A stretch of DNA of 64,000 nt, taken from contig NZ_FNJQ01000019.1 of assembly GCF_900104055.1 (NCBI RefSeq), positions 1 through 64,000 on the forward strand. The letters are read 5' to 3'. The position numbers and the translations under genes were made by a program. The DNA comes from Pseudoselenomonas ruminantium. Its GTDB lineage: Bacteria > Bacillota > Negativicutes > Selenomonadales > Selenomonadaceae. Positions within the stretch are counted from its first letter, which is position 1; every line of letters starts with the position of its first letter. Below are positions 15,924 to 34,986 of the stretch, piece by piece. The notes beneath the pieces were generated by a model that saw only the letters and a list, made by a program, of their open reading frames with translations, made no database searches and had not been told where the DNA came from.

Positions 15924-15952
15924 GAAACAGAAATTGAACAAGGGGTATGGGG

Positions 15953-16834
15953 ATGCTGAGAAAAAATCGTCAGGACATTCTGGCAGGCCTGCGGGAAAAC
16001 CTGAATAAGGGAAAAATCCTGACAGGCCTAGGAACAGGCATGGAGGAAATCCTTAAGCATATCGATAGGACTAATGTAGATTTTGTCGCGCTCTACCATA
16101 CCGGCCGTTTGCAGCAGGCTGGACGCAATCTGATGTCCAGCCTGCTGTCCTATGATGATGCCAATTCATTGATGCAGGCCAAAGGTGAGGATTTGCTGCC
16201 GGTGGTGAAGAAGACACCGCTGATAGCTGGTGTATGCGGGACGGACCCCTTCCGGAAGATGGATATGTTCCTGGCGCAGCTAAAAGAACAGGGATTCAAT
16301 GGCGTGCAGAACTTTCCTACTGTGGGCATCATCGATGGCCGCTTCCGGGCCAATCTGGAAGGAACGGACCTGGGGTATCAGCTGGAAGTGGATATGGTCC
16401 GGGAAGCACATGAACTGGATCTGTTTACCTGCCCGTTCGTATTCGATGTGGAGCAGGGCAAGGCGATGACAGAAGCCGGGGCCGATGTGCTGGTCATCCA
16501 TTTGGGAATCGTGACCAAGGCCATGCTGAACGCGGGCAATGTCCCGCCGCTGTCGGACTGCTGTGCACTGGCGGAAAAGATCATGCGGGAAAGCAAGGCG
16601 ATAAGGCCGGATGTGATTACGCTGGTCTGCGGGCAGAGAATGGCGGCTTCTGAAGATGCCGCCTATATCGTGGAACATGTTCCAGAATTGGATGGTTTTT
16701 TCAGTTTCTATCCGCTCAAGAGCGAAGATACGGAGCGCAGCCTGCAGGTCCGGGTGAGATCTTACAAGGTGCTGGATAAGATGAAGGCGTTTGTGGCCAG
16801 AAAACAGGGAGCTATGAGTGATGGCAGTTTATGA
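15953..16834 (+). CDS. stand-alone TIM-barrel 'PEP hydrolase-like' protein
   Basis: A 293-aa cytoplasmic protein of the family called PEP hydrolase-like or TIM-barrel signal-transduction domain (PF09370 type, from memory). The marker sequence GVCGTDPFRKMDMFLAQLKEQGFNGVQNFPTVGIIDGRFR lies at ~90-130. The family is known as the sensor half of some sigma-54 activators and is thought to bind a small molecule. Start taken at ATG 15953, 7 nt from AAGGGG. Its last 17 nt overlap the next gene, which carries the same domain plus an AraC-type module, so the two are almost certainly co-translated and may form a complex. No direct enzymatic evidence here. Confidence 0.78.
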   Translation: MLRKNRQDILAGLRENLNKGKILTGLGTGMEEILKHIDRTNVDFVALYHTGRLQQAGRNLMSSLLSYDDANSLMQAKGEDLLPVVKKTPLIAGVCGTDPFRKMDMFLAQLKEQGFNGVQNFPTVGIIDGRFRANLEGTDLGYQLEVDMVREAHELDLFTCPFVFDVEQGKAMTEAGADVLVIHLGIVTKAMLNAGNVPPLSDCCALAEKIMRESKAIRPDVITLVCGQRMAASEDAAYIVEHVPELDGFFSFYPLKSEDTERSLQVRVRSYKVLDKMKAFVARKQGAMSDGSL

Positions 16835-18011
16835 TAAAAGCTATATCCTGCGCCGCCTGCGGGCGGAGGTCAACGTCGGCGGGCATATAATCGGTGCGGC
16901 GGTCGGTTCCGGTATGACCGCCAAGCTGGCGGCCATGGGCGGAGCGGATCTTTTGCTGGCACTTTCGGCGGGGAAATACCGCATCATGGGGCGCAGTTCG
17001 TTGAGCAGTTATTTCTGCTATGGCAACAGCAACCAGATGGTCATGGAGATGGGCAAGCGGGAGATCTTTCCCGTGGTACAGGATGTACCCTTGCTGTTTG
17101 GTCTGATGGCCAGCGATCCCTATCTGAAACTGTATGACTATCTGAAGCTGATCAAGGAATGCGGTTTTGCCGGCGTTGTGAATTCGCCGACACTGGCACT
17201 GGTGGATGGCAGTTTCCGCGAGGCGCTGGAAGAAGAAGGCAGTTCCTATGAACGGGAAGTGGCGGCGATAAACCTGGCCAATCAGCTGGATCTCTTGACC
17301 ATGGCTTTTGTGACTTCCGTGGAGGAAGCCGATAAGATGCTGGCCGTGGGGGCCGATATCATCTGTGTGCATATGGGACTTACGGCTGGCGGCCTCTTGG
17401 GAGCCAAGCGCCATCTGACCATCAGTGAGGCCCGGGGCATCGCGCAGGCAATCTTCGAGCTATGCCGGAAAAAGAAGCCGGATTGCCTGCGCATGGTCTA
17501 TGCCGGGCCGGCCAATACATTGATGGATATGCAGTATATATACCGCAATACGGACTGTCAGGGCTATATCGGTGGTTCGACCTTTGACCGCATACCGATG
17601 GAGAAATCCATCTATGATACCGTGAGTTCCTTCAAGCAGTACTGTAGTCCGGAAGCCATCGGCACATTGCGGGAACGCAAATGGGGCGGCAATCAGTTGG
17701 TGGAATCCATGCGCCGCTACATTGAGGAACACTATATGGATGATGTGAAGCTGGGCGACCTGGCCTTGGTGGCACATATGTCAGCGTCCTATATGGGCGG
17801 GCGCTTCAAGAAGGAAACGGGCATCAGCTTCACGGATTACCTTTTGCAATTCCGCATGGGCAAGGCCAAAGCTTTGCTGAAAAGCGACAAGAACCTGCAA
17901 TGCAAGGAAGTGGCCGCGCAGGTCGGTTATCATGATTATGTACAGTTTTCCAAGATGTTCCGCAAGCATGTGGGGATGTCTCCACGGGACTATCAAGGAA
18001 CATTAGATTAA
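16818..18011 (+). CDS. TIM-barrel sensor fused to AraC-type DNA-binding domain
   Basis: A 397-aa protein. Residues 1-285 repeat the PEP hydrolase-like barrel of the preceding gene (FGLMASDPYLKLYDYLKLIKECGFAGVVNSPTLALVDGSFREAL). Residues ~295-397 are a complete AraC/XylS double helix-turn-helix (LGDLALVAHMSASYMGGRFKKETGISFTDYLLQFRMGKAKALL, then VAAQVGYHDYVQFSKMFRKHVGMSPRDY). The barrel replaces the usual cupin-like sensor of AraC proteins. Either GTG 16818 or ATG 16821 could start it. Next to the pectin operon, it is the best candidate for its activator. The ligand is likely a late intermediate such as KDG, KDPG or PEP, which is inference only. Confidence 0.8.
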   Translation: MMAVYDKSYILRRLRAEVNVGGHIIGAAVGSGMTAKLAAMGGADLLLALSAGKYRIMGRSSLSSYFCYGNSNQMVMEMGKREIFPVVQDVPLLFGLMASDPYLKLYDYLKLIKECGFAGVVNSPTLALVDGSFREALEEEGSSYEREVAAINLANQLDLLTMAFVTSVEEADKMLAVGADIICVHMGLTAGGLLGAKRHLTISEARGIAQAIFELCRKKKPDCLRMVYAGPANTLMDMQYIYRNTDCQGYIGGSTFDRIPMEKSIYDTVSSFKQYCSPEAIGTLRERKWGGNQLVESMRRYIEEHYMDDVKLGDLALVAHMSASYMGGRFKKETGISFTDYLLQFRMGKAKALLKSDKNLQCKEVAAQVGYHDYVQFSKMFRKHVGMSPRDYQGTLD

Positions 18012-18034
18012 AAATAAGATACACCTATAAATTT

Positions 18035-18082
18035 AAAGTTGTGTTTATACGCATATCAAATGCTGAAAACACAACTTTTTTA
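18035..18082 (+). terminator. terminator of the TIM-barrel/AraC pair
   Basis: AAAGTTGTGTTT/AAACACAACTTT 12-bp perfect stem followed by TTTTTT. It separates the regulator genes from the pectin operon. Its right arm contains one of the AAACACA repeats. Confidence 0.85.
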
Positions 18083-18136
18083 TGGTTGGATTTCTGGAAA
18101 TAAATTTTAAACACAAGTAAAAAGGCGATAAACACA
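18067..18136 (+). promoter_or_regulatory. three AAACACA half-sites in 21-bp phase upstream of uxaB
   Basis: AAACACA occurs at 18067, 18109 and 18130. The spacings are 42 and 21 bp, so all three face the same side of the helix. The last two are extended (TAAACACA). AraC-family activators classically bind direct repeats 21 bp apart. A TATAAA (18142-18147) follows 5 bp after the last site with no -35 match, as expected for an activator-dependent promoter. Confidence 0.55.
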
Positions 18137-18211
18137 TTTACTATAAAGAATAAAACGATTAAAATAATAAGTAACAAGTAAGAAAACAGGCTGCGGGAGG
18201 TAAAATACAGT

Positions 18212-19711
18212 ATGGAACGGCTGAATTATGAAGTATTGGAGAAAAGTGGCTATCAGGGATACATCCTGAAAGAAGCACCAGTAAAGATGCTGCAGTTTGG
18301 CGAAGGCAATTTCCTGCGGGCCTTTGTGGATTACTTCTTTGATGTGGCCAATGAGAAAGCCGGCTGGCACGGCAAGGCCATTTTAACCCAGCCGCGGGGG
18401 AAAGGGAAGGATAAGGTCTTCAACGAACAGGAAGGCCTATACACCCTCTATATTCGGGGCAATGAGAAAGGCCAGAAGGTAGATGAACGACGGGTGATTT
18501 CGGTGGTGGAAAAATGTTATAACCCCCTGGAACATTTTGACAGACTGACTGAAGCTGCCTGCCTGGATACCTTGGAATATATCACCAGTAATACCACGGA
18601 AGCTGGCATCGTCTATGATCCCACTGCGAAACTCACGGACGTACCCCCTGCCAGCTTCCCGGCAAAACTGGCAAAACTATTGTATGCACGTTTTCAGGCA
18701 GGCAAGAAAGGTTTGATCATCCTGTCCTGTGAACTGATTGATCATAATGGCCGGGAACTGCAGAAAATTGTCCTGCAGCATGCCCGGGACTGGCAGCTGG
18801 GCGAAGGTTTCGTCCGCTGGATTGAAGAGGAGAACCTGTTCTGTTCCACGCTGGTGGACCGTATCGTTCCCGGTGAGATCCGGGATGCTGGTGAGATTGC
18901 GGCGCTGAATCAGATCAATGGTTATGAAGATAGATTGATGGATGTAGGTGAGGTCTTCGGCGTCTGGTATATTGAAGGGCCGAAGGAATTGGAGGACAGG
19001 CTCCCCTTCAAGCGGGCTGGACTGAATGTCCATGTGGTGCCGGATATCGCACCATACAAGAAGCGGAAGGTGCGCATCCTGAATGGCGCCCATACAGGCT
19101 TTGCCCTGGGCAGTTTCCTCGCAGGCAAGGATATCGTCAGGGATTGCATGAACGATGATGTGATCCGGGCGTTCATGAATCACATGCTCTATGAGGAAGT
19201 GATTCCCATCCTGCCGTTGGATCAGCAGGATTGTGAAAAATTTGCCGCTTCTGTGGCCGACCGGTTCAACAATCCGTTCATGGAACATCAGCTTCTCAGT
19301 ATTGCCCTGAATTCCACGGCTAAGTGGAAGGCGAGAGATATGGGCTCGCTGCTGGAATACCGGAAGAAGTTTGGCAAGCTGCCCAAAAGCCTCGTGATGA
19401 CGCTGGCGGCGTATATCGCCTTCTATTCCACTGATATTCAGGCACGGCAGGAAAAAGCACTTCTGTGCCGGCGCCCTCAGGGAGATATCTATCCGGTGCA
19501 GGATGATGACTGGGTACTGGATTTCTATTATGAGCATCGTCATAGCGATGATGCAGTCCTGGTCCATGATGTGCTGGCTTACGAAAAGATGTGGGGCTGC
19601 GATCTGACGCAGCTGCCTGGACTGGAAATGCAGGTGCTGAAGGATTTGCAGCTGATTCGCCAGAAAGGCACGAAGAAAGCCTTTGCCAGTTGTTTGTTGG
19701 CATGTGCCTGA
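18212..19711 (+). CDS. uxaB: tagaturonate reductase (altronate oxidoreductase)
   Basis: Reduces D-tagaturonate to D-altronate with NADH in the galacturonate (Ashwell) pathway; cytoplasmic. 499 aa, close to E. coli UxaB. The N-terminal nucleotide-binding segment MLQFGEGNFLRAFVDYFFD (~27-45) and the mannitol dehydrogenase-type block KKRKVRILNGAHTGFALGSFLAGKDIV (~285-311) mark the polyol-specific long-chain dehydrogenase family. Start ATG lies a normal distance behind GGGAGG. It is the first gene of the long pectin operon and follows the phased AAACACA sites. Confidence 0.93.
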   Translation: MERLNYEVLEKSGYQGYILKEAPVKMLQFGEGNFLRAFVDYFFDVANEKAGWHGKAILTQPRGKGKDKVFNEQEGLYTLYIRGNEKGQKVDERRVISVVEKCYNPLEHFDRLTEAACLDTLEYITSNTTEAGIVYDPTAKLTDVPPASFPAKLAKLLYARFQAGKKGLIILSCELIDHNGRELQKIVLQHARDWQLGEGFVRWIEEENLFCSTLVDRIVPGEIRDAGEIAALNQINGYEDRLMDVGEVFGVWYIEGPKELEDRLPFKRAGLNVHVVPDIAPYKKRKVRILNGAHTGFALGSFLAGKDIVRDCMNDDVIRAFMNHMLYEEVIPILPLDQQDCEKFAASVADRFNNPFMEHQLLSIALNSTAKWKARDMGSLLEYRKKFGKLPKSLVMTLAAYIAFYSTDIQARQEKALLCRRPQGDIYPVQDDDWVLDFYYEHRHSDDAVLVHDVLAYEKMWGCDLTQLPGLEMQVLKDLQLIRQKGTKKAFASCLLACA

Positions 19712-19722
19712 AAGGATTGGAT

Positions 19723-21210
19723 ATGGATAGGATAAAAGCAGTGCGCATCGCCGCAGAAGATAATGTGGCGGTGGCACTGACCAAGATAGATAAAGGGGAA
19801 TGCCTGCAGGTGGGGGATGTGGAAGTTACCGCCTGTGAGGAAATTCCCCAGGGACATAAGATTGCGTTGCAGTCTGTGGCAGAAAACGAGAACATCATCA
19901 AATACGGGTATCCCATCGGACATGCAGCCCAGGACATCAGTCCGGGCTGCTGGGTACATACCCATAACTTGCGGACTAATCTCAAGGGAGAAATAGAATA
20001 CGTTTACCATCCGGCGGTGCATGATCTGCCAGAGCAGCCAGCCCGGGAGTTTGCCGGGTATCTGAGACCAGATGGCCGGGCGGGTATCCGCAATGAGATC
20101 TGGATCATCCCCACAGTGGGCTGTGTCAATGATGTAGTGCTGAAGCTGGCGCGGGATAATCAGGATCTGTTGGGTGAACATATCGACGGCATCCATGCCT
20201 TCACGCATCCCTTCGGCTGCAGCCAGACCGGTGCGGACCATGCTCAGACCAGAAAGCTTCTGGCGGCTTTGGTCAATCACCCCAATGCCGGTGGTGTGCT
20301 GGTGGTGCACTTAGGTTGTGAGAACTGCACCCATGAACAGTTTGTGGAAGAATTGGGGGATTTTGACCGGGAACGGGTAAGGTTCCTCAACTGCCAGCAG
20401 GCAGAAGATGAACTGGCTGCCGGACGTCAGCTCCTGCAGGAACTTACAGCTTATGCCGGCAGGTTCAGACGGCAGTCCCTGCCAGCCAGCAAACTGGTGG
20501 TGGGGCTGAAGTGCGGAGCCTCTGATGGGCTTTCGGGAATCACCGCCAACCCCACGGTCGGCAGGTTCAGCGACCTGCTGCTGAGTCAGGGCGGCAGCAC
20601 CATCCTGACCGAGGTGCCGGAGATGTTCGGTGCCGAAGGCATCCTTCTGGGCAGGTGCCGCAATCGGCAGTTGTTTGACAAGGCGGCGGCCATGCTCAAT
20701 GGCTTCAAGGACTACTTCATCTCCCATCATGAGGTGGTCTACGACAATCCCAGCCCCGGCAACAAGCAGGGGGGCATCACCACACTGGAAGACAAGAGTT
20801 GTGGCTGTGTCCAAAAGGGAGGTACGGCGCCCATTGAAGATGTGCTGGGGTACGGGGAGCAGGTAAAGAAGCAAGGTTTGAACTTGCTCTATGGGCCGGG
20901 CAATGACCTGGTTTCCAGCACAGCTCTGGCTGCTGCTGGTGCTGCCTTGATCCTCTTCACCACAGGCCGGGGGACGCCCTTTGGTTCACCGGTACCCACC
21001 GTGAAGATTGCTACCAACAGCCGCCTGGCCCAGCATAAACCGCATTGGATTGACTTCAATGCCGGTACGGTGGCGGAAGGCGAAGCGTTGGACACGGCTG
21101 GTGGGCGCTTGCTGGACAAAGTCCTGCAGGTGGCCGGTGGCGAACTGACCTGCAATGAGAAAAACGGCTATCGCCAGATTTCCATATTCAAAGATGGTGT
21201 TGTTTTATAG
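19723..21210 (+). CDS. uxaA: altronate dehydratase
   Basis: Dehydrates D-altronate to 2-keto-3-deoxygluconate (KDG). 495 aa, the same size as the E. coli enzyme. An N-terminal SAF domain (~1-90, IPQGHKIALQSVAENENIIKYG) is followed by the catalytic UxaA domain. Conserved Cys/His are visible in THPFGCSQTGAD (~165), HLGCENC and LKCGASDGLSG. Start ATG 19723 has GAAAGGA upstream; a longer frame overlaps uxaB with no ribosome site. 11 nt after uxaB. Confidence 0.94.
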   Translation: MDRIKAVRIAAEDNVAVALTKIDKGECLQVGDVEVTACEEIPQGHKIALQSVAENENIIKYGYPIGHAAQDISPGCWVHTHNLRTNLKGEIEYVYHPAVHDLPEQPAREFAGYLRPDGRAGIRNEIWIIPTVGCVNDVVLKLARDNQDLLGEHIDGIHAFTHPFGCSQTGADHAQTRKLLAALVNHPNAGGVLVVHLGCENCTHEQFVEELGDFDRERVRFLNCQQAEDELAAGRQLLQELTAYAGRFRRQSLPASKLVVGLKCGASDGLSGITANPTVGRFSDLLLSQGGSTILTEVPEMFGAEGILLGRCRNRQLFDKAAAMLNGFKDYFISHHEVVYDNPSPGNKQGGITTLEDKSCGCVQKGGTAPIEDVLGYGEQVKKQGLNLLYGPGNDLVSSTALAAAGAALILFTTGRGTPFGSPVPTVKIATNSRLAQHKPHWIDFNAGTVAEGEALDTAGGRLLDKVLQVAGGELTCNEKNGYRQISIFKDGVVL

Positions 21211-21229
21211 GAAGGACTGATTTTCCGTT

Positions 21230-22663
21230 ATGAAGGCTTTTATGGGGAAAGATTTTATGCTCCGCAATCAGACAGGTGCGCGGCTGTATGAAGAATATGC
21301 CCGGGACTTGCCGCTGGTTGACTATCATTGCCATATCTCACCCAAAGAGATTTTTGAGGACCGCCGCTTTGACAATATCGCGCAGATTTGGCTGGGCGGG
21401 CGCAATGATGATGGCACTTACTTCGGTGACCATTATAAATGGCGGGTGATGCGCACCAACGGCGTACCCGAGGATATGGTTACCGGCGGGGCAGATCCCT
21501 ATGAGAAGTTCAGCGCTTTTACGAAATCGCTGGAAATGGCCATCGGCAATCCCATGTATCACTGGTGCAATCTGGAGCTGCATAAGTATTTTGGTGTGAC
21601 CGAACCCCTTACCGAAAGCAATATGAAAGCCGTCTGGGACAAGGCCAACGATATGCTGCAGCATAACCCGGATATGTCCGTGCGGGGGCTTATCCGTCAG
21701 TCCAAGGTCGCTTACATCGGCACTACGGATGATCCCATCGACACGCTGGAATGGCATGAGAAGCTGGCTGCCGATGAAACGGTGGAGTTCAAGGTCTGCC
21801 CCTCCTTCCGTCCGGACAAGGCGGTCAATATCCATAAAGAGGGCTTCCGTGAATATATGGAAAAACTGGCGGCCTGCGTGGGCAAGGAAAAACTGGCTTC
21901 CATTGAGGATGTGCTGGCGGCCCTTACGGAACGGATCGCTTATTTCAAGAAGCACGGCTGCCGGGCCAGCGACCATGGCCTTGATTATGTGATGTTCAAC
22001 CATCAGGGATTGGAGGCTGCGGATAAGGCCTATAAGAAAGCCCTTGACGGCGAAACGCTCACGACGGCGGAAGCCGAGGCTTATCAGACCGAAGTGCTGC
22101 TGCATCTGGCCCGGGAATACCATAAGCAGCAGATCGTGATGGAAATCCATTACTCCTGCAGCCGCGACAACAACGAAAAGATGTTTGCCCTGCAGGGGCC
22201 GGACACGGGGTTCGACATGATTGCCCAGACCACCTGCATCGGCAATCTGGCAAGGTTTATGAGTGAGCTTTACAGGGAAGGTAATCTGCCGCAGATGATT
22301 CTGTTCTCGCTGGACAGCACGGATTTTGACCGGATAGCCTCGCTGATGGGCTGCTTCCAGTCCGAGGAAATGCCCGGCAAGATCCAGATGGGTTCGGCCT
22401 GGTGGTTCCTCGATACCAAGGACGGCATGGAAAAGCAGATGCGCTCACTGGCCCGGCTTTCCCTGTTGGGGAATTTTGTCGGCATGCTGACCGATTCCCG
22501 TTCCTTCCTGTCCTATACCCGTCATGATTACTTCCGGCGCATCCTGTGCAATATCATCGGTGACTGGGTGGAACATGGAGAGTATCCCTGCCATGAAGCA
22601 TCTTTGCAGAAGATCGTGGAGGGCATCAGTTATAAAAATGCAGTCCGCTACTTCCACATTTAA
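21230..22663 (+). CDS. uxaC: uronate isomerase
   Basis: Isomerises D-galacturonate to D-tagaturonate (and glucuronate to fructuronate). It belongs to the amidohydrolase-like TIM barrel family; 477 aa. The metal-binding DYHCHISPKEI lies at ~31-41. EIHYSCSRDNNEKMF (~305) and the late block LSLLGNFVGMLTDSRSFLSYTRHDYFRRILC are diagnostic of UxaC. 19 nt after uxaA, in operon. Confidence 0.95.
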   Translation: MKAFMGKDFMLRNQTGARLYEEYARDLPLVDYHCHISPKEIFEDRRFDNIAQIWLGGRNDDGTYFGDHYKWRVMRTNGVPEDMVTGGADPYEKFSAFTKSLEMAIGNPMYHWCNLELHKYFGVTEPLTESNMKAVWDKANDMLQHNPDMSVRGLIRQSKVAYIGTTDDPIDTLEWHEKLAADETVEFKVCPSFRPDKAVNIHKEGFREYMEKLAACVGKEKLASIEDVLAALTERIAYFKKHGCRASDHGLDYVMFNHQGLEAADKAYKKALDGETLTTAEAEAYQTEVLLHLAREYHKQQIVMEIHYSCSRDNNEKMFALQGPDTGFDMIAQTTCIGNLARFMSELYREGNLPQMILFSLDSTDFDRIASLMGCFQSEEMPGKIQMGSAWWFLDTKDGMEKQMRSLARLSLLGNFVGMLTDSRSFLSYTRHDYFRRILCNIIGDWVEHGEYPCHEASLQKIVEGISYKNAVRYFHI

Positions 22664-22695
22664 AAGTGGCGATTTAAGGAAAGGATTTAGAGAGA

Positions 22696-23406
22696 ATGAA
22701 AGAGATATTCAAGCAGTTCAAGGAGATTGGGATTATCCCGGTGGTGGTCATGGAAGATGCACAGTATGCAGAACAGCTGGCAGATGTCCTCTGCGATAAC
22801 GGTCTGCCCTGTGCGGAGGTCACCTTCCGTACGGAGGCAGCTGCCGAGGTGATTTCCCGCATGGTGAAACATCGCCCGGAACTTCTGGTGGGGGCGGGCA
22901 CTGTGCTCACCACGCAGGAAGCAGATCTGGCCATCGCCGCGGGGGCAAAGTTCATCGTCAGCCCCGGCCTTAACCCCGAAGTGGTCCGGTACTGTCAGGC
23001 CAAGGGGATGCCGGTAGCTCCGGGAACCCAGACGCCCAGCGAAATGGAACAGGCCATCGGCCTGGGGCTGGATTTCGTGAAATTCTTCCCGGCGGAACCG
23101 GCTGGCGGCCTCAAGATGATCAAGGCGGTGGCTGCGCCCTACGGTCAGCTGGTCTTTATGCCGACAGGCGGCCTTACGCCGGAGAATGTCCGTGCCTATC
23201 TGGCCGATGACAAGATTCTGGCCTGCGGCGGCAGCTGGATGGTCAAGCAGCAGATGATGGCTGAGGGTGACTGGGACGGGATTGCCGGTCTGGTCCGTGA
23301 GGCTGCGGATATCGTCCGGGAAGTCCGGGGCAGGAAAACGGTCAATAGCCTCTATCGCAAGGACAAGTCAGACTATTTGAATAAGCGTAAATTGAAGATT
23401 TCTTGA
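22696..23406 (+). CDS. eda: KDPG aldolase
   Basis: Cleaves 2-keto-3-deoxy-6-phosphogluconate to pyruvate and glyceraldehyde-3-phosphate. 236 aa, about 20 longer than E. coli Eda because of a basic C-terminal tail (from ~212) with no clear role. The general-base Glu lies in CAEVTFRT (~37), the Schiff-base Lys in FVKFFPAEP (~116), and PTGGLTPENV follows. 32 nt after uxaC. Confidence 0.95.
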   Translation: MKEIFKQFKEIGIIPVVVMEDAQYAEQLADVLCDNGLPCAEVTFRTEAAAEVISRMVKHRPELLVGAGTVLTTQEADLAIAAGAKFIVSPGLNPEVVRYCQAKGMPVAPGTQTPSEMEQAIGLGLDFVKFFPAEPAGGLKMIKAVAAPYGQLVFMPTGGLTPENVRAYLADDKILACGGSWMVKQQMMAEGDWDGIAGLVREAADIVREVRGRKTVNSLYRKDKSDYLNKRKLKIS

Positions 23407-23433
23407 ATAGGCAATGGAAATGAGGTCATAAAC

Positions 23434-24918
23434 GTGGCGTTTTCCTGGAATCAAAAACTTTATGAGGAAATCCTGGCTAAGTTCAGAGCGCCTTTGCCCC
23501 GTGTCAGGTTCTGCCGGATCACGGACAGCAGATATCAGGAGCTCTGGCGTTCCGTGGAGGAAATCTACTATGAGCATCCGCTGGGCCCTTACAGGGGCAG
23601 CAAGGCGGAGCTCAAGGAAGATCTGTCGTACCGGGAGGAAAGATTGTTAGAGCGGCGCCGGCATGTGCTGTTCCATGGTCAGGCTATCCAGCAGGCCATT
23701 GATGATATGGCGCAGGCGGGCGGCGGCCGGGTGGAAATCCCGGCAGGCATCTGGTATACCGGTGCGCTGGAGCTCAAATCGCATGTAGAGCTGTATCTGG
23801 CGGCTGGTGCCAGGCTCTGCTTCATCCGCAACAAGAGCAATGTCTTCTATCCCCTGCGCTATACTCGCTGGGAAGGCGTGGAATGCATGAACTTTTCGCC
23901 GTTCATCTATGCGGAGGGCGCAGAGGACATCAGCATCACGGGACAGGGCACGCTGGACGGGCAGGCCGATGAATTCAACTGGATGCCCTGGAAATTCGGC
24001 TACTTCGGCGAGCCGGATCAGGAGGAGCAAAGACAGCGACTCTTCCGGGCTGGGGCAGAGGGACTTCCCGTTTCGCAACGCATTTTTACCGATGATGTAT
24101 CCACCCTGCGGCCGCCCTTCATCCAGTTCTACAACAGCAAGGATATCCGAATCATGGGCGTGCATATCGTCAATTCCCCCTTTTGGGAAATCAATCCGGT
24201 GCTCTGCGAGAATGTCTGGATCAAGGGTGTACATATTGAGACGGATCTCTACAACAACGATGGCATCGATCCGGAATCCAGCCGCAATGTGCTGATCGAG
24301 GATTGCTATTTTCTCACGGGGGATGACTGCATCGCGATAAAATCCGGGCGCAATGAGGATGGGCGTCGCATCGGCGTGCCGACGGCCAATGTGATCATCC
24401 GCCATAACCGCTTTGCCAATGGCCACGGCGGCATCACCTTGGGCAGTGAGATTTCCGGCGGGGTGCATGATGTGTTTGCGACAGGCAACCATTTCGACAG
24501 TCCCAACCTCGATTATCCCATCCGTTTCAAGACCAATGCCATGCGGGGGGGCACGCTGGAAAATGTCTATGTGAAGGACAGCGTGGTCAACAAGGCACGG
24601 CTGGCGGTGGTGCATGCGGATTTCTTTTACGAGGAAGGCCATGCAGGAGAAAACCTTCCGCAGCTGGATAATATCACGCTGGATGGTTTCCGGACCGCAG
24701 AGGGCGGCAGCATTGATGCACGTTATGCCTTTTATCTCAAGGGCTTTGCCGATGCGCCGATTGCCAATATCACCTTCCGGGATATGCAGCTGGAAGGGGT
24801 GAAAGGTGAGGCTGTGCTGGAAAATGTCCAGGGACTGGCCTTCGAGAATGTGACCATTAACGGAAGACGTCAGCCGGACCGGCTGGTGGATGTTGGCTCT
24901 GACGGGCAGGTCGGATAA
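23434..24918 (+). CDS. cytoplasmic GH28 polygalacturonase-family hydrolase
   Basis: Glycoside hydrolase family 28 (right-handed beta-helix), 494 aa. It lacks a signal peptide, so it should act inside the cell on imported oligogalacturonides. Catalytic set in order: NNDGIDPESS (~274), GDDCIAIKSG (~296), GHGGITLGSE (~330) and RFKTN (~363). An N-terminal ~75-residue extension before the helix (WRSVEEIYYEHPLGPYRG) is not assigned. The start is GTG. Position between eda and the symporter fits a digalacturonate- or oligogalacturonate-cleaving exo-enzyme. Rhamnogalacturonan hydrolase activity is an alternative. Confidence 0.85.
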   Translation: MAFSWNQKLYEEILAKFRAPLPRVRFCRITDSRYQELWRSVEEIYYEHPLGPYRGSKAELKEDLSYREERLLERRRHVLFHGQAIQQAIDDMAQAGGGRVEIPAGIWYTGALELKSHVELYLAAGARLCFIRNKSNVFYPLRYTRWEGVECMNFSPFIYAEGAEDISITGQGTLDGQADEFNWMPWKFGYFGEPDQEEQRQRLFRAGAEGLPVSQRIFTDDVSTLRPPFIQFYNSKDIRIMGVHIVNSPFWEINPVLCENVWIKGVHIETDLYNNDGIDPESSRNVLIEDCYFLTGDDCIAIKSGRNEDGRRIGVPTANVIIRHNRFANGHGGITLGSEISGGVHDVFATGNHFDSPNLDYPIRFKTNAMRGGTLENVYVKDSVVNKARLAVVHADFFYEEGHAGENLPQLDNITLDGFRTAEGGSIDARYAFYLKGFADAPIANITFRDMQLEGVKGEAVLENVQGLAFENVTINGRRQPDRLVDVGSDGQVG

Positions 24919-24952
24919 GAGCCGGACTTTTAACTGTGTTAGGAGGATCAAG

Positions 24953-26485
24953 ATGGAAGCAAGAAAAGTAACTTGGTGGAATGTGCTGGGCTATGCCTGT
25001 TTGAATTTCCTCGGTGGCGGTACCCAGGCACTCAGTTCCGCTTTCCTGATGTTGTTCTACACGATGTATTGCGATATTCCCGCCGTGCAGGCAGGTCTTA
25101 TCTTTACCATTGCCAGATGTATCGATGCCGTGGGCAATCCGGTGATGGGCTATATCAGCGATAACTTTGGCCGTACCCGCTTGGGCAAGCGCTTCGGGCG
25201 GCGCAAGTTCTTTATCCTGACCGGTATTCCCTTGGTGCTTATCACCTATCCAATCCTTTGGACGCCGGGCCATAGTTTTGAATTCTATGTGGCTGCCAAC
25301 ATCATCTATGAGATCGTCTTTACCAGTGTGATGGTTCCGGGGCCGACGCTGCCGGCAGAAATGACGCAGGTCGCAGCCGAAAAGACCAAGCTGGTCTCGG
25401 CCAAGCAGTATTGCGGCACCTTTGCCAGCACCATTGCCCTGCTGTTCCCGGCCTTCTTCTTCCAGCGCTTCGGAGAAGGCAATCTCGATGCTTTCTTCTA
25501 TACTGGCCTTACCTATGCTGTGGTAGTTTCCATCTCCTTAGCCGTTATGTATGTACTGACCTATGAACGTGCACCCGAGGACATCCACTATACGGAAGAG
25601 ATGGGTTCAGTATCCCATGTGCTGCGCAAATTGGTCAATGACGTGTTCGCTTCCATGCGCATCCGGGCCTTCCGCCTCCATGCCGGCATGATGCTCTTTA
25701 TCGGCATCTACAAGAATTTGGCCGCGGGCGTGTTCACCTACTATGTGGTTTATGCCCTGTCCCTGTCGGTTAGTGCGACCTCCATCATCACGAGTTTTGC
25801 CACCTTGGTTTCCTTCATCGCTTTGGCAATCTTCATCACCATCTGCTACCGCCGCGGCGGCCCGTTCGCCTTCAAGGTGGTAGGCGTCATCGTGACGGCT
25901 TCGCTGGCCGGTTATTATATCCTGTTCCAGAATCAGTCCAGCATGACTGAAGAGGCCGTGATTGTCTGGTTGACCGTTCTGGCCATCATCAACAATGTGG
26001 GCAAGGCTGGTGCAGACTATATCCCGGTATTCCAGCTGCCGTTTATGGCTGATATTGATGAAGCGGTTACCATGGAACGCCGCGAGGGTATCTTCACAGG
26101 CGTGAATGGCCTGCTGTCCAAGCTCGCCTCGGCTGCCGAAGGCTTCCTGCTGGGCGTAGGGCTGGCCCTCTTCGGTTTTGAAAAGGGCGCTGGCCAGCAG
26201 ACGGCAATGGCTATTGATGGCGTGCTGGTCATGACCATTGCGGTGCCAATCGTTCTCTGCGGCATCGTTTATCTGATTTCCCGCAATCTGACGCTGACCA
26301 AGGAAAACCATAAGCTCCTCGTGGATGAGGTACATCGCATCCGTTCGGGCGGCAGCATGGCCGATGTGACGCCGGAAACGCGCAAGGCTGTGGAATCCCT
26401 GACGGGCTGGAAGTATGAGCAGTGCTTCGGTCATAATGATCTGATGCGCGTCCACGATGAACCCGCTAGTGTTCATTCCCACTGA
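24953..26485 (+). CDS. GPH-family sugar/oligouronide:cation symporter
   Basis: Inner-membrane transporter of the glycoside-pentoside-hexuronide family (MFS fold), 510 aa with about 12 TM segments. The N-terminal half has the motif DAVGNPVMGYISDNFGRTRLGKRFGRRKFFIL (loop 2-3), the signature of GPH proteins, which is close to the MFS loop. Start ATG 24953 lies 6 nt from AGGAGG. It is the only inner-membrane transporter in the pectin operon, so it should import galacturonate oligomers or unsaturated uronides. A ~45-residue C-terminal cytoplasmic tail ends in His-rich SVHSH. Confidence 0.85.
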   Translation: MEARKVTWWNVLGYACLNFLGGGTQALSSAFLMLFYTMYCDIPAVQAGLIFTIARCIDAVGNPVMGYISDNFGRTRLGKRFGRRKFFILTGIPLVLITYPILWTPGHSFEFYVAANIIYEIVFTSVMVPGPTLPAEMTQVAAEKTKLVSAKQYCGTFASTIALLFPAFFFQRFGEGNLDAFFYTGLTYAVVVSISLAVMYVLTYERAPEDIHYTEEMGSVSHVLRKLVNDVFASMRIRAFRLHAGMMLFIGIYKNLAAGVFTYYVVYALSLSVSATSIITSFATLVSFIALAIFITICYRRGGPFAFKVVGVIVTASLAGYYILFQNQSSMTEEAVIVWLTVLAIINNVGKAGADYIPVFQLPFMADIDEAVTMERREGIFTGVNGLLSKLASAAEGFLLGVGLALFGFEKGAGQQTAMAIDGVLVMTIAVPIVLCGIVYLISRNLTLTKENHKLLVDEVHRIRSGGSMADVTPETRKAVESLTGWKYEQCFGHNDLMRVHDEPASVHSH

Positions 26486-26529
26486 ATACACGAAAAAATT
26501 TTTGCAATATTTAGGAGAGAACGAAGAAA

Positions 26530-27633
26530 ATGAAAAAATATTCACAGTGGATGGCTGATTCCGTTATCCAGCGCAAGACCGACCTGACAAGTTACTGGGC
26601 TTATGAATTTGGCCTGACGCTGGACGGCATCGCGGAGGTCTGGCATCAGACCGGAGAGCGGAAATACTTTGACTACATCAAGTCCTGCATGGATACGTTT
26701 ATCGGGGAGGATGGCAGTATCCGGGGTTATGATGTCCAGGAGTACAATATCGACCATCTCAACAATGGCAAGATCCTGCTGACCATATACAAGGAAACCC
26801 ATGAGGAAAAATACCGCAAGGCACTGGAACTCCTGCGCAGCCAGATTGAGCATCATCCCCGCACGAAGGAAGGGGTGTTCTGGCACAAGGAAATCTATCC
26901 GGAACAGATCTGGCTGGATGGCCTCTATATGGGGGCAACCTTCTATGCCAAATACGTCAGTGAGTTCAGCCGCAGCATGGAGGAATATGATGATATTGCC
27001 CGGCAGTTTATCATCGCCCGTAAGCATACGCTCGATGAGCAGACAGGGCTTCTCTATCACGCCTATGACGATGCCCGCCAGCAGCCCTGGGCCAACAAGC
27101 TGACAGGACTTTCCAAGCACTTCTGGGCCCGCTCCATTGGCTGGTACTGCATGGCGCTGGTGGATACGCTGGCAGAATTGCCGGCGGACAATCAGTATAA
27201 GCCGGAGCTCATCCAGATCCTCAACGATACGATGCAGGCGCTGATCAAAGTGGCCAGCCCCCAGTCCCATGTCTGGTATCAGGTGCCGGACTGCGGCGAC
27301 CGCAAGGGCAACTATGTGGAAGCTTCCGGCTCGTCCATGATCGCCTACGCTCTGTTCAAGGGGGTGCGCATGGGCTGGCTGCCGGAGAGCATGCGGGAAT
27401 TTGCGAAACTCTCCTATCATGGGCTCATTGATGAATTCATCACCGAAACGCCCATGGGCACCATCTGCCTCAATAAGATCTGCTTCGTTGCCGGGCTGGG
27501 CGGCCAGCCCACCAAGGCTTACGGCGAGCGGGATGGTTCCTTTGCCTACTATATCAGTGAACCGATTGTGACCAATGAACCCAAGGGATTGGGCCCCTTC
27601 ATTCTGGCGGCTGCGGAATATGAGCGCCTTTGA
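26530..27633 (+). CDS. GH105 unsaturated galacturonyl/rhamnogalacturonyl hydrolase
   Basis: Family GH105 (YteR/YesR type), a cytoplasmic (alpha/alpha)6-barrel enzyme. It removes unsaturated uronic acid from the ends of oligosaccharides made by pectin lyases. 367 aa, no signal peptide. NIDHLNNGKILL (~76) and the acid Asp in IWLDGLYMGATFYAKY (~135-150) match the family. Its product feeds KduI/KduD encoded downstream. No polysaccharide lyase gene is in this window, so the substrate must come from elsewhere in the genome or from neighbours in the community. Confidence 0.88.
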   Translation: MKKYSQWMADSVIQRKTDLTSYWAYEFGLTLDGIAEVWHQTGERKYFDYIKSCMDTFIGEDGSIRGYDVQEYNIDHLNNGKILLTIYKETHEEKYRKALELLRSQIEHHPRTKEGVFWHKEIYPEQIWLDGLYMGATFYAKYVSEFSRSMEEYDDIARQFIIARKHTLDEQTGLLYHAYDDARQQPWANKLTGLSKHFWARSIGWYCMALVDTLAELPADNQYKPELIQILNDTMQALIKVASPQSHVWYQVPDCGDRKGNYVEASGSSMIAYALFKGVRMGWLPESMREFAKLSYHGLIDEFITETPMGTICLNKICFVAGLGGQPTKAYGERDGSFAYYISEPIVTNEPKGLGPFILAAAEYERL

Positions 27634-27708
27634 ACGTGGAAACGGATTTAGTAAATAGTTGGCTGTTGATTTTTCGTATTGTGTGTCCTTAGGAGTGAAA
27701 ACGAAACG

Positions 27709-29217
27709 ATGATAAAACAGAAGATGCTTTTAGGTCTAGTCAGTGCAGCATTTTTAGGTATGGGCAGCCTGCCCGGTGCGGCCGAAGCCGCCGACAATCC
27801 CTTTGCCAGCGTGCCGCCGGACAGCGGCTATTATGATGATGTGGATGCGCTGGTCAACAACGGTCTGATCTATGGCTATGAGAAAGGCGAATTCAAGAAG
27901 ACGCGCATCATCAGCCGCATGGAGATGGCCATCTTCACGGCCAAGGCCATGAGTGCCATGGACCGGGCCGGGGCTGAGGATGCCCAGCGCATCCAGCGCT
28001 TGATCAAGGAGTTTTCCGGGGAACTTTCCGATATGCATGTGAAGGTGCCGGGCGTAGCGGCAAAGAAGGAAGAATCCAAGGCAGCCAGTGGACCAAAGAT
28101 CAAGCAGATGCCCAAGAACTTCAGCCTGACGGGCCTGATCCGCCTGCGTGATGACTGGGGACACAACAAGAATGCCGATGGCAAGGATGATACCTTCGGT
28201 GGAACGAAGAACCATCAGCTGCTCTGGCAGATGTTCACGAAATTTGATATCGGTGCTGGCTGGACCGGTGAGATCGACTTCCTCGGCGCCAAAGATGGGG
28301 ATGGGGATTCCCGTACTACTGGCGAAAATACCAGCGGTACCGCCGATGTCAACAAGGCTTTTGTAACCGGGCCGCTGGCCGGAGGTTCCGTGCGTGTGGG
28401 CCGTGTGAAAGGTTCCACGGTCTATGGCGATTCCATGATTATGGGGCAGTATTATCAGGGGATTGATTACACCCGTAAGATGGGCAAATGGAAAGCTGGG
28501 GCGACCTGGGGCAAGGTAGATTATAATACTTCAAGATGGAGCGGTGACACTGAGAAAGTCAATACGACATATTATGATAAAGATGGAAAGGCCCATTATG
28601 GATATAAGGCAGAACGGGGCGTTTCAGGTTCAGATATGAATCCGGACGGTCTGGGTGTTAATATGACACAGATACAGACTTCTTATCAGGCCAGCAAGGA
28701 CTTTGCCTGGAATATGGGTTTCTGGCATCTGACAGCCCGGGGCAGCGGCAATTACCGCAGCAGCAAGGATATTGCGCTGGGTAAGGCTTCCACGCACTAT
28801 AATGATCCCAATATCTTTGAGACCAGTGTCAGCTGGCAGGCTTCCCGCAAGCTGAAAGTTCTGGGGAACTTTGCCATCTCCGATGATACGCGTGGCAAGG
28901 ATACGGACTTTGGCCGCCAGAACAAGGCCTATGGCATATCCTTCCGCTGGGGGCAGGTGGCGGCCAGCAATCCGCATTCCAGCAAGCTCCAGCTTGACCT
29001 GCTGCATCAGGAACGCTATACGGGCATCAAGTCCACTTATGATCTGAAGAACAAGATGGGCGAAGGTGAGCGGGGCTTCATCCTGGATTACCGCTATGTG
29101 CCCATCCAGAATGTGATGTTCGACTTCCGTTGGATGCACTATCATTCCCTGGGCAAGACCGCGGCTAAGACGGATCATGGCAATCAGTACCGTGTACAGG
29201 CATATTATTACTTCTAA
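27709..29217 (+). CDS. SLH-domain outer-membrane porin (OmpM type), pectin locus
   Basis: Outer-membrane protein of 502 aa. A signal peptide (LLGLVSAAFLGMGSLPGAAEAA) is followed by one SLH domain (~27-85, YYDDVDALVNNGLIYGYEKGEFKKTRIISRMEMAIF), a Lys-rich linker, and a beta-barrel of ~350 residues ending in aromatic YYF, the usual barrel terminal signal. In Negativicutes the SLH domain binds polyaminated peptidoglycan and tethers the outer membrane. Start ATG 27709. Being inside the pectin operon, it is probably a substrate-induced pore for oligogalacturonides. 21 nt separate it from the exo-GH28 gene. Confidence 0.87.
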   Translation: MIKQKMLLGLVSAAFLGMGSLPGAAEAADNPFASVPPDSGYYDDVDALVNNGLIYGYEKGEFKKTRIISRMEMAIFTAKAMSAMDRAGAEDAQRIQRLIKEFSGELSDMHVKVPGVAAKKEESKAASGPKIKQMPKNFSLTGLIRLRDDWGHNKNADGKDDTFGGTKNHQLLWQMFTKFDIGAGWTGEIDFLGAKDGDGDSRTTGENTSGTADVNKAFVTGPLAGGSVRVGRVKGSTVYGDSMIMGQYYQGIDYTRKMGKWKAGATWGKVDYNTSRWSGDTEKVNTTYYDKDGKAHYGYKAERGVSGSDMNPDGLGVNMTQIQTSYQASKDFAWNMGFWHLTARGSGNYRSSKDIALGKASTHYNDPNIFETSVSWQASRKLKVLGNFAISDDTRGKDTDFGRQNKAYGISFRWGQVAASNPHSSKLQLDLLHQERYTGIKSTYDLKNKMGEGERGFILDYRYVPIQNVMFDFRWMHYHSLGKTAAKTDHGNQYRVQAYYYF

Positions 29218-29238
29218 GGCATTGTAGGAGGCAGAAAC

Positions 29239-30951
29239 ATGTTTATCAATAAAAAGAAAGTTGCAGCATTGGCATGTGTGATCGGTCTGTCCCTGTCACA
29301 GGGCGTTTGGGCAAATCCGGCCGCCCCCACAGGGCTGACGGCTCCAGGGCAGGCGGTGACGGATAACAGCCTGAGCCTGATCTGGGACCGCCCGGCCAAG
29401 GATGATGAGGTAGTCAGCTACAATGTCTATATGGATGGGAAATTGGTGGCGCAGACTGCCAAGGATTTCTCCTCTGAGGCCAAGCAGGAGATCCGGGATT
29501 TCTACACCGCCTCTCCGCAGGGGCAGAAGGTCGTAAGCCATAATTACCGGGTTACCGGTCTGCAGCCGGGCAGCAAGCACAGCTTCACGGTGCGGGCAGT
29601 GGATGCCAAAGGTGCAGAATCGGTGGACAGCAACAAGCTCAGCACGGCAACCCTTACGGCTGGTGCTCGGCTGGACGTGACGAAATACGGTGCCGTCGGG
29701 GATGGCAGCACGCTCAATACCCAGGCTATCCAAAAGGCCATTGATGCCTGTCCCGCTGGTGGTACGGTGGTTGTCCCGGCAGGTAATTTCAAGACCGGCA
29801 GCCTCTGGCTCAAGAGTGATATGACCTTGGAAGTGCAGAAAGATGCTACCTTGCTGGGGACGGAAGATCCGTCAGCTTATCCTTATCATTACAAGCTTTA
29901 CTCCTACCTTTCCGATGAACGCTATTTTTCCCTGCTCAATGCTCGTCCTGGTCAGGATGGCAAGCAGCTGCAGAATATTCGCATCGTTGGGGAAGGTACC
30001 ATCGATGGCAATGGCTGGAAGATGGATGAAAAGGGCAATTATCTCTACCGGGCCAGAGCGAAGAAAGGCGAACCTCTGCCGGCCAATCATGTTTCCAAGA
30101 TCGGCGTATTGGCCGCCAATCAGGTAGCAGCCCTGGAAAAAAACGAGGGCTTGGATGAAAACAAGGCTTATCCGCGCCGTTCCAGCCTGATCCTGCTGAA
30201 GGGTGTCGACCATGTTTACGTCACGGGCGTAACGCTCAAGAATCCGGCCAATCATACACTGGTCTTGCAGAAATGCAATGACGTGGTCGTGGAGAACACC
30301 AATTTCCAGACCTTCAACTGCAATAATGGCGATGGCATCGAATTCGGCCATGGAAAAGGTTTGAAAGTCTACGACAATGTGTTCAACAACGGTGATGACT
30401 GCGTGAACTTTGCCGCTGGCCAGGGAGCCAAAGGAGAGAAGGGCGCACCCACCGAGGATATCTGGATCTTCAACAACTCCTTCCATCATGGGCATGGTGC
30501 CGTGGTCATGGGCAGCCATACGGCAGCTTATATCCAGAAACTGCTGGCAGAGGACAATGTCATCGATGGCACGGAAATCGCCCTGCGCATGAAGACCAAT
30601 CCGGCTAATGGCGGTGGTGCCCGGGACGTCTTGTTCCGCAACAATGCGGCTCGCAACCTCACGAAGAATTTCTTCATTGCCACGACGGCTTATAGCGATC
30701 CCAATGCCAAGACTGATTTCCCCAAGGCCAGCAAGGCCGGCAGCTTCTACAACATCCGCGTGGAGGACTGCACGGTGGAGAAAACCGGCAAGGCTGCTAT
30801 CGAGATCGTGGGCCTGCCCGAGGCCAAGCACCATGATATCAACTTCAAGAATATCACGATTGATAAAGGCCAGCCATGGATCATCACCAATGCCGAAAAT
30901 ATCGATTTCGACAATGTAAAACAGAGTAATACCCCTATCAATAAATTCTAA
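29239..30951 (+). CDS. secreted exo-poly-alpha-galacturonosidase (GH28) with FnIII domain
   Basis: Hydrolyses polygalacturonate, probably releasing digalacturonate (PehX-like layout). 570 aa: signal peptide (~1-25), fibronectin type III domain (~30-135), then a GH28 beta-helix. Catalytic residues lie in NNGDGIEFG (~362), GDDCVNFAAG (~384), GHGAVVMGSH (~417) and RMKTN (~449). Export implies periplasmic or surface location, ahead of the porin or symporter step. It shares fold and active-site pattern with the cytoplasmic GH28 at 23434 but is a different subfamily. Confidence 0.9.
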   Translation: MFINKKKVAALACVIGLSLSQGVWANPAAPTGLTAPGQAVTDNSLSLIWDRPAKDDEVVSYNVYMDGKLVAQTAKDFSSEAKQEIRDFYTASPQGQKVVSHNYRVTGLQPGSKHSFTVRAVDAKGAESVDSNKLSTATLTAGARLDVTKYGAVGDGSTLNTQAIQKAIDACPAGGTVVVPAGNFKTGSLWLKSDMTLEVQKDATLLGTEDPSAYPYHYKLYSYLSDERYFSLLNARPGQDGKQLQNIRIVGEGTIDGNGWKMDEKGNYLYRARAKKGEPLPANHVSKIGVLAANQVAALEKNEGLDENKAYPRRSSLILLKGVDHVYVTGVTLKNPANHTLVLQKCNDVVVENTNFQTFNCNNGDGIEFGHGKGLKVYDNVFNNGDDCVNFAAGQGAKGEKGAPTEDIWIFNNSFHHGHGAVVMGSHTAAYIQKLLAEDNVIDGTEIALRMKTNPANGGGARDVLFRNNAARNLTKNFFIATTAYSDPNAKTDFPKASKAGSFYNIRVEDCTVEKTGKAAIEIVGLPEAKHHDINFKNITIDKGQPWIITNAENIDFDNVKQSNTPINKF

Positions 30952-30959
30952 CCCTCCGG

Positions 30960-31006
30960 AAAGCCTTCCCCTCTGGGGAAGGCGCCCCGTAAGGGGCGGA
31001 TGAGGT
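30960..31006 (+). repeat. dispersed twin-hairpin repeat, copy A
   Basis: Two adjacent perfect hairpins: CCTTCCCC-TCT-GGGGAAGG (30964-30982) and CGCCCC-GTAA-GGGGCG (30983-30998, GNRA loop), then GATGAGGTT. A degenerate copy lies at 43719-43770. It sits between two genes of the pectin operon and could act as an mRNA stabiliser or attenuator. Confidence 0.65.
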
Positions 31007-31024
31007 TAGACTGGAGGTCAGTAC

Positions 31025-31417
31025 ATGAAAAAATTATACCGTCTGACGGGCATCATGTTCCTCTTGTGCCTGTTGTGCTGCAGCAGTTTCCTGTCTGTCA
31101 CGGAAGCGGCAGACAAGGAAGTATCCTTCAAGGTGACGCAGGTAGAGCTTTCCGGCAGCAAGGTTTTGCTGCATGGCAATTTTAAGAATGAAAGTGAAGA
31201 ATTCCAGAAAGTCAGGCAACTTACCGTTCGTTATACCCTGTCGGACGCCGATGGTTATCCGCTGCTGGTAGGCAGTTGCCGGGGCAGTGATCTGGATATT
31301 TCCGTGGGCAGTGACAAGGTTCCCTATACGCTGACGGCAGAGAATATACACGCGCCGGAATTTTCCAGCAGTGATATCGCTGTTTGGAAAATCAGTGCCC
31401 ATGTGGAAACTGAATGA
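31025..31417 (+). CDS. small exported protein of unknown function
   Basis: A 130-aa protein with a clear signal peptide: hydrophobic LTGIMFLLCLLCCSSFLSV, with possible cleavage at TEAAD or lipidation at one of the Cys. The mature part (~30-130) looks like a single beta-sandwich (VTQVELSGSKVLLHGNFKNESEEF..., VRYTLSD). It is not a family I can name. It lies in the pectin operon 18 nt after a twin-hairpin repeat. A role at the envelope with the exo-GH28 or porin is inference from position only. Confidence 0.7.
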   Translation: MKKLYRLTGIMFLLCLLCCSSFLSVTEAADKEVSFKVTQVELSGSKVLLHGNFKNESEEFQKVRQLTVRYTLSDADGYPLLVGSCRGSDLDISVGSDKVPYTLTAENIHAPEFSSSDIAVWKISAHVETE

Positions 31418-31475
31418 AGGATTTATTGAAAACAATATGGAATATAAATAAGGGATATGAAAAGAAGGGATGACA

Positions 31476-32315: not shown

Positions 32316-32356
32316 GGCAAAAGGCTGTCAGCAGAGGTGAGAAAGGATAGATATTT

Positions 32357-33304: not shown

Positions 33305-33307
33305 ACA

Positions 33308-34150: not shown

Positions 34151-34163
34151 GGAGCGCATGGAG

Positions 34164-34955: not shown

Positions 34956-34986
34956 GACAAAGAAAACAAATTAGAGGTGAATCCTG

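Follow-up and report, generated by a model that had tools for sequence, protein, structure and literature searches.

Two overlapping genes for barrels of the PF09370 family are found on the + strand of a 64,000-nucleotide (nt) stretch of the Pseudoselenomonas ruminantium genome (contig NZ_FNJQ01000019.1, positions 1 to 64,000; here called the window), directly ahead of a presumed pectin operon that begins with uxaB. The first gene (15947..16834) encodes a solitary barrel of 295 residues; the second (16818..18011) encodes a 397-residue protein in which a barrel is fused to an AraC-type DNA-binding domain, and which we propose to be the activator of the uronate operon. Pfam assigned PF09370 to residues 11-274 of the solitary barrel (266 bits) and residues 10-274 of the fused protein (312 bits), in each case across the whole domain and above the family cut-off of 33.8 bits. 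The C terminus of the fused protein matches HTH_18 at residues 315-393 (74.9 bits) and HTH_AraC from residue 302 in two stretches; these are the two helix-turn-helix (HTH) motifs, within some 100 C-terminal residues, by which the AraC family is recognized. The two barrels are 29% identical. We know of no activity for any member of the PF09370 barrel family.

A first-pass annotation of this DNA, made from the sequence alone, had described an overlapping pair of PF09370 genes, one of them fused to an AraC double HTH, ahead of a 15-gene pectin operon. The open reading frames (ORFs) and Pfam domains agree with this description, and 15 same-strand ORFs follow the pair (18212-36204). The overlap amounts to 17 nt if the fusion starts at GTG 16818; the likely start, ATG 16821, agrees with the starts of the nearest relatives and gives 14 nt. 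Because the pair recurs, overlapping, in the same order and free of stop codons, in 7 of the 22 genomes of Selenomonas, the genus of the window, we do not regard it as a chance arrangement. The seven solitary barrels are of two types, A (the window and genomes G013 and G017) and B (G010, G011, G003, and G008); the overlap in the type-B relatives is 4 nt.

The gap between the fusion and uxaB (18012-18211) can be aligned in all seven Selenomonas genomes, including two in which kdgA comes next, and each gap contains direct repeats of ATAAACACA, 21 bp apart and touching the -35 box, as a putative operator. In the window, the proximal half-site ATAAACACA (18128..18136, + strand; position 0) abuts a promoter-like TTTACT-17-TAAAAT (18137..18165, +), both hexamers of which are conserved in the seven aligned gaps. 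Further half-sites lie at -21 (TTAAACACA; 18107..18115, +) and at -63 (18065..18073, +), the latter imperfect in the window and reading ATAAACACA in G017, G013, G008, and G003, and an inverted half-site (TGTGTTTAT on the + strand) is found at -88 (18040..18048, - strand). A 21-bp direct repeat touching the -35 box is the classical AraC layout. The -88 and -63 half-sites also form an inverted repeat followed by a run of T, terminator-like in appearance (18040-18082); similar inverted repeats were seen by eye in G149, G151, and G200.

A short exact form of the pattern, AACACA-N15-AACACA, is present at six of the seven loci with the pair; the window's genome has it at a single place, the fusion-uxaB gap. 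As a genome-wide regulon finder it was rejected, with 11 matches in the 22 genomes against 10 in a reversed control, near background, and reliance was placed instead on a longer pattern, on spacing, and on position. Across the 380 genomes of our survey of the class Negativicutes, the longer pattern gave nine matches with 0-1 mismatch, all of them after a fusion gene or before a gene for DctP, a component of tripartite ATP-independent periplasmic (TRAP) transporters. With 0-2 mismatches this was true of 14 matches out of 15, the sole exception (G020:C65) lying within a polysaccharide-synthesis frame; up to 3 mismatches gave 63 matches, compared with about 31 control matches by hand count.

Individual gaps were scored, with a best possible score of 18, against 500 dinucleotide shuffles of each gap. 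A TRAP operon (DctP, DctQ, and DctM by Pfam) on contig C38 of the window's genome has half-sites at 0, -21, and -63 and the inverted site at -88, with spacings identical to those before uxaB. In the window's genome, G013, and G017 alike, the TRAP promoter scores 17-18 of 18, a level reached by 0/500 shuffles; the G013 promoter lacks the inverted site. A DctP of the C38 type (E<=1e-60) is found in 3 of the 22 Selenomonas genomes, these same three, all of which carry the pair. In G289, a member of the related genus g50, a related 0/-21/-64 layout, in which no inverted site was found, precedes a DctP gene adjoining the fusion (0/500 shuffles), a second DctP gene downstream of uxaB-uxaA-uxaC (4/500), and the solitary barrel, which here lies inside a kdg operon (0/500); the last two are 3-mismatch matches, taken on position and the shuffle test. 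This footprint suggests that the fusion controls both uptake and breakdown of uronates and, in G289, the solitary barrel too.

The pair stands directly before uxaB-uxaA-uxaC-kdgA in five of the seven Selenomonas genomes; in G003 and G008 the genes that follow it encode KDPG aldolase (kdgA) and a PfkB kinase, and the loci further include UxuA (G008) and KdgT (G003). The barrels of Selenomonas (7/22 genomes) and of g50 (two genomes, G289 and G290) lie with uronate or TRAP transporter genes. Within Selenomonas, then, the proposed tie between the fused protein and uronate genes held, both in gene order (all seven pair-bearing genomes) and in the operator before uxaB or kdgA and the TRAP transporter, and a role of the fused protein as the predicted uronate regulator and activator of this lineage is well supported at the level of sequence. 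When contigs were searched with the fused protein, relatives carrying the barrel came up only at loci L036-L038; the other 15 loci matched through the HTH alone. At L038 (also L114), in the metagenome-assembled genome RUG11858 (G290:C37, about 7334-9243 of L038), the fusion gene breaks off within the HTH and continues in frame as a uxaC fragment, which is a deletion or a misassembly.

The first-pass annotation had named homologues of the fusion lying mainly away from uronate genes as an outcome that would speak against its regulatory model, and at the level of the class this is where they lie. In all 20 intact AraC-barrel loci fetched outside Selenomonas and g50, the order on one strand is AraC-barrel, UPF0261, and a second barrel (at L032 this was checked with Pfam), and the 20 cassette stretches (4.9-19.9 kb) gave no homologue of twelve uronate/pectin proteins of the window (E<=1e-10, >60% coverage). 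An AraC fusion of this kind, an arrangement that the annotation did not know in company with a co-translated sensor twin, is thus not unique to the window. That no uronate gene is near the fusion in these 20 loci would fit a pair that regulates something else and is a mere neighbor of the pectin genes, as would the upstream side, where the pair abuts a penicillin-binding protein (PBP)/TelA cluster or a GSP_synth-like gene. We consider this very improbable: whether uxaB or kdgA lies downstream, the operator accompanies uronate genes, and it is seen again ahead of a TRAP transporter, both at another place in the window's genome and in G289. The annotation's interpretation as a whole therefore survives in part: an AraC-type regulator linked in Selenomonas to uronate/pectin genes is supported, whereas the class-level link and, as the phylogeny below indicates, the twin are not.

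Among the gaps before UPF0261 in the 20 cassettes, 13 have a score reached by at most 7/500 shuffles, and that of G040 is a perfect 18 of 18; the gaps of G200, G190, and G188 were delimited by hand, the longest UPF0261 ORF overlapping them. In the G157 cassette, UPF0261 is split into two ORFs. PF09370 was detected in 66 of the 380 class genomes at E<=0.001, 53 of them above the family cut-off, and neighborhoods were fetched for 44 of these 53 (all except G313, G316, G104, G105, G107, G113, G114, G187, and G222). Broken genes and barrel fragments (the G182 fusion pieces, G185, and the G194 fusion) were excluded from tree and counts; UPF0261 does follow the broken fusions of G182 and G194. In three further class loci (L031, L110, and L111) the AraC fusion is replaced by a sigma-54 activator of 608-625 residues, with an AAA+ sigma-54 domain that a Pfam search did not find in the window fusion. 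A restriction of the fusion to Negativicutes was ruled out with 398 genomes drawn evenly from the phylum: 16 of the 36 non-Selenomonas genomes with a PF09370 match in this set were examined, yielding at least two loci outside the class (G401 and G617) with an AraC fusion in a cassette, and the G617 gap passes the shuffle test (0/500). Long open frames in G707 and G407 contain no AraC domain. In seven other loci (L219-L222 and L227-L229, from G448, G520, G481, G739, G409, G757, and G523), UPF0261 is flanked by two different solitary PF09370 barrels and no AraC domain is present, which is a second way of pairing barrels.

UPF0261 (PF06792) itself was found in none of the 22 Selenomonas genomes, where the barrels accordingly have no UPF0261 gene beside them, and in neither of the two g50 genomes with barrels. 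PMC5028733 gives a figure of 491 of 504 (97.4%) TBST-bearing bacterial genomes with UPF0261, which makes the Selenomonas lineage an exception.

A tree of 76 rows places the regulator barrels, AraC and sigma-54 alike, in one clade (support 98/97) and the UPF0261-linked barrels in another (97/99), with the long-branch row L124 as the exception. (L124 and L232, from G284 and G494, belong to a second, divergent UPF0261/PF09370 cassette.) The window fusion falls in the regulator clade with those of Selenomonas and g50, and the window solitary barrel in the UPF0261-linked clade; by this tree the two barrels are old paralogues. The "sensor twin" of the first-pass annotation is thus inaccurate, and a recent duplication of the fused barrel was ruled out as the origin of the solitary one. 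The tree omits the G290 solitary barrel, row L114_G290_solo being the truncated fused barrel of that genome; the residue analyses below use the correct sequence. We label UPF0261-linked barrels "enzyme-type"; that such barrels are enzymes at all is something we infer.

Structure models of both barrels gave as best fold match 2p10, annotated as a putative phosphonopyruvate hydrolase, followed by other TIM barrels, including enzymes of the phosphoenolpyruvate (PEP) mutase/isocitrate lyase type; these matches suggest a 2-oxo-acid-like ligand. The C-terminal helices of the fused protein were well modeled. Residue 123 of the fusion, which sits after strand 4 in the model, is Ser in all nine recruited fusions and Phe or Tyr in all 23 other regulator barrels aligned, and is a candidate for a change of specificity.

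The explanation that we favor, at a probability of about 0.7 for the whole, is of a recruited activator. The fused protein would be an AraC-type activator with an enzyme-like PF09370 barrel as its sensor, binding the direct repeats immediately next to the -35 boxes of the uxaBAC-kdgA pectin operon and of the TRAP (DctPQM) transporter; on binding of a pathway metabolite to the barrel, probably a 2-oxo or sugar acid, operon and transporter would be switched on. Regulator and operator would derive from the self-contained AraC-barrel/UPF0261/barrel cassette of other Negativicutes and at least two genomes beyond. In the Selenomonas lineage, UPF0261 would have been lost, and the fusion appears to be a cassette regulator of long standing and wide distribution that was recruited, together with its operator, to uronate genes. 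The solitary barrel would be the cassette's former UPF0261-linked barrel, much diverged, its gene now overlapping that of the regulator; its role would most likely be that of an accessory co-sensor, or of an enzyme acting on a uronate metabolite.

Several observations weigh against this explanation. The operator consensus was first derived from Selenomonas, so the seven gaps there are not independent, and the -88/-63 repeat with its T run may partly be a terminator whose sequence the operator shares. Of the gaps ahead of UPF0261, four out of 20 score weakly (10-22 of 500 shuffles; G128, G131, G190, and G188), and three (G183, G200, and G130) fail the shuffle test, as does the G401 gap outside the class; no operator was found before the solitary barrel of G290 (219/500 shuffles). 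UxaC is present in 21 of the 22 Selenomonas genomes, and in 14 of the 22 it is found without the pair; uronate use therefore does not need the pair. The broken AraC-barrel-type gene of G185 (L129), which was not counted, has no UPF0261 after it. The assemblies of G289 and G290 are 79% and 88% complete, so they are weaker evidence for the absence of UPF0261, and confidence in the structure model of the solitary barrel is middling (predicted local distance difference test, pLDDT, 76.7).

Residue conservation was assessed over 144 columns that are invariant in 34 enzyme-type sequences. The Selenomonas solitary barrels keep 63-65% of these and the fused barrels 51-53% (window, 0.64 and 0.53), so the window's solitary barrel does not keep the full set of residues invariant in UPF0261-linked barrels. 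Its losses are concentrated after strand 5: it keeps 67 of 104 columns in the N-terminal part versus 9 of 40 in the C-terminal part (p=6e-6), the latter losses including HGGP and the G-A-S-S loop. The N-terminal motifs GTDPFR, QNFPTVG, N136, E147, and H185 are kept in all seven Selenomonas genomes. The two g50 solitary barrels are intermediate, with the beta-6 loop lost and HGGP kept. No such bias is seen in the fused barrels; other AraC-fused barrels keep 36/104 and 17/40 of the N- and C-terminal columns (p=0.44).

The stem of the solitary barrels, common to the seven Selenomonas rows, measures 0.82 changes per site, followed by 0.43 for type A and 0.58 for type B; among the remaining enzyme-type barrels of the family, G289 (0.54) apart, no tip exceeds 0.062. 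Ratios of nonsynonymous to synonymous substitution rates (dN/dS, by NG86) between the window and G017 are 0.071 for the solitary barrel and 0.042 for the fusion, and over eight Selenomonas pairs they range over 0.05-0.21 and 0.04-0.14, respectively. Three enzyme-type pairs of genus g39 gave 0.008-0.017, with dS saturated. These values indicate that the solitary barrel is under purifying selection, with weaker constraint than in its relatives; that it is a pseudogene was ruled out by the low dN/dS together with intact frames in all seven genomes.

These data bear on an alternative in which the solitary barrel would have kept an enzymatic function, with a uronate-derived 2-oxo acid as substrate, and would play no part in regulation; the overlap would only ensure co-expression. 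The loss of most invariant residues of the C-terminal part and the absence of UPF0261 tell against it, and "enzyme" is itself an assumption for the family; its position within the UPF0261-linked clade, the kept N-terminal motifs, dN/dS below 0.25 in all eight Selenomonas pairs computed, the PEP mutase/isocitrate lyase-type enzymes among the fold neighbors after 2p10, and the G289 gene inside the kdg operon with its own operator tell for it. We regard this alternative as quite possible, if somewhat short of even odds.

Within the genus, the fusions of G010 and G011 are window-like (91%), and their solitary barrels are of type B, common to G003 and G008 (87%). This mixture, and the GSP_synth-like gene upstream in both G011 and G003, indicates that the solitary and fused genes have partly separate histories. 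Such histories tell against the two-protein regulator of the first-pass annotation, in which the solitary barrel would modulate the fused one or feed ligand to it, and which we take as a mixed oligomer of the two with the former enzyme as co-receptor; so does the finding that one fusion type stands beside partners just 56% alike, and in G289 the fusion and the solitary barrel are on separate contigs. At first sight the two barrels seemed to have lost active-site residues in a complementary way, but the test did not support this (joint table, p=0.49). In favor of a mixed oligomer are the overlap of the genes in all seven Selenomonas pairs, the presence of a solitary barrel in all nine genomes found with a fused barrel and without UPF0261, and its strongly accelerated evolution, and we hold it possible but doubtful. 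A fuller scenario, in which a one-time enzyme and a regulator derived from a paralogue of it became a dedicated two-protein metabolite sensor, appears unlikely; here the barrel, after the loss of UPF0261, would have decayed catalytically, become coupled to the AraC-barrel gene, and served as co-receptor in the uronate regulon taken over with the ancestral operator.

The recruited activator that we favor resembles AraC/XylS activators such as AraC and RhaS in its C-terminal double HTH and in putative half-sites, repeated directly at 21 bp and adjoining the -35 box, as at araI. It differs in having a PF09370 TIM barrel as its presumed sensor in place of a cupin; this barrel would be a paralogue of a gene in the regulator's ancestral target operon. 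AraC proteins of the FtrA/GbdR type likewise join an enzyme-derived domain to an AraC HTH, and their NCBIfam models match the HTH part of the fused protein, far below cut-off; their fold differs, and here a UPF0261-linked sister barrel is encoded alongside. MocR/PdxR, and DhaR with DhaK/DhaL, offer parallels for an enzyme fold reused as a sensor and for enzyme subunits steering a regulator, although folds and DNA-binding domains are unrelated. The PF09370 sigma-54 activators share the regulator-barrel clade and the cassette with UPF0261 and a barrel, but have an AAA+ sigma-54 output and a Fis HTH in place of the AraC HTH.

The solitary barrel belongs to the same TBST/PF09370 family as the barrel of the UPF0261/TIM-barrel (Tm-1-like) pair of PMC5028733, although UPF0261 is absent from 22/22 Selenomonas genomes; that paper's main text contains none of the words AraC, HTH, and sigma. 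Pectin use in a Clostridium has been linked to a Crp-type regulator in the account of PMC4441647. A search of an open-licence library of papers found none that names PF09370, and none joining the phosphoenolpyruvate hydrolase-like family or a TIM-barrel sensor domain with AraC or a transcriptional regulator. The locus would provide a step-by-step natural example of the rewiring of a transcription switch, in which the sensor is paralogous to a gene of the operon formerly controlled, one operator can be traced from UPF0261 cassettes to the genes for pectin sugars, and rapid change of the partner barrel followed. For a rumen genus, it also names a regulator, an operator, and a regulon of pectin-sugar use (the uxa operon and the TRAP transporter) that can be put to the test, and it may give an entry point to the ligand and function of the widespread UPF0261/PF09370 pair.

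Downstream of the pair, all on the + strand, the uronate operon opens with a UxaB-like oxidoreductase of the mannitol dehydrogenase type (tagaturonate reductase; 18212..19711), followed by altronate dehydratase UxaA (19711..21210), uronate isomerase UxaC (21230..22663), and a KDPG/KHG aldolase (22696..23406). The remainder of the presumed pectin operon (23434..36204) encodes, in order, a GH28 protein, an MFS protein, a GH88 protein, an SLH-domain protein, a second GH28 protein, a 130-residue ORF, an AP_endonuc_2 TIM barrel, PfkB, KduI, an SDR (KduD-like) protein, and a GltD-like flavoprotein, the last of the 15 ORFs. The SLH-domain protein (27679-29217), possibly an outer-membrane porin for pectin oligomers, is found in the type-A loci (the window's genome, G013, and G017). 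The 130-residue ORF (31025-31417) has no Pfam match and is conserved in G013 and G017. The operons of G010 and G011 lack the SLH protein, the second GH28 protein, and the 130-residue ORF. On the upstream side (13941-15946), the pair begins 23 nt after a penicillin-binding protein gene that has TelA before it; the pairs of G011 and G003 come after a GSP_synth-like gene instead of the PBP/TelA cluster, and the pair may be transcribed from these unrelated upstream genes.

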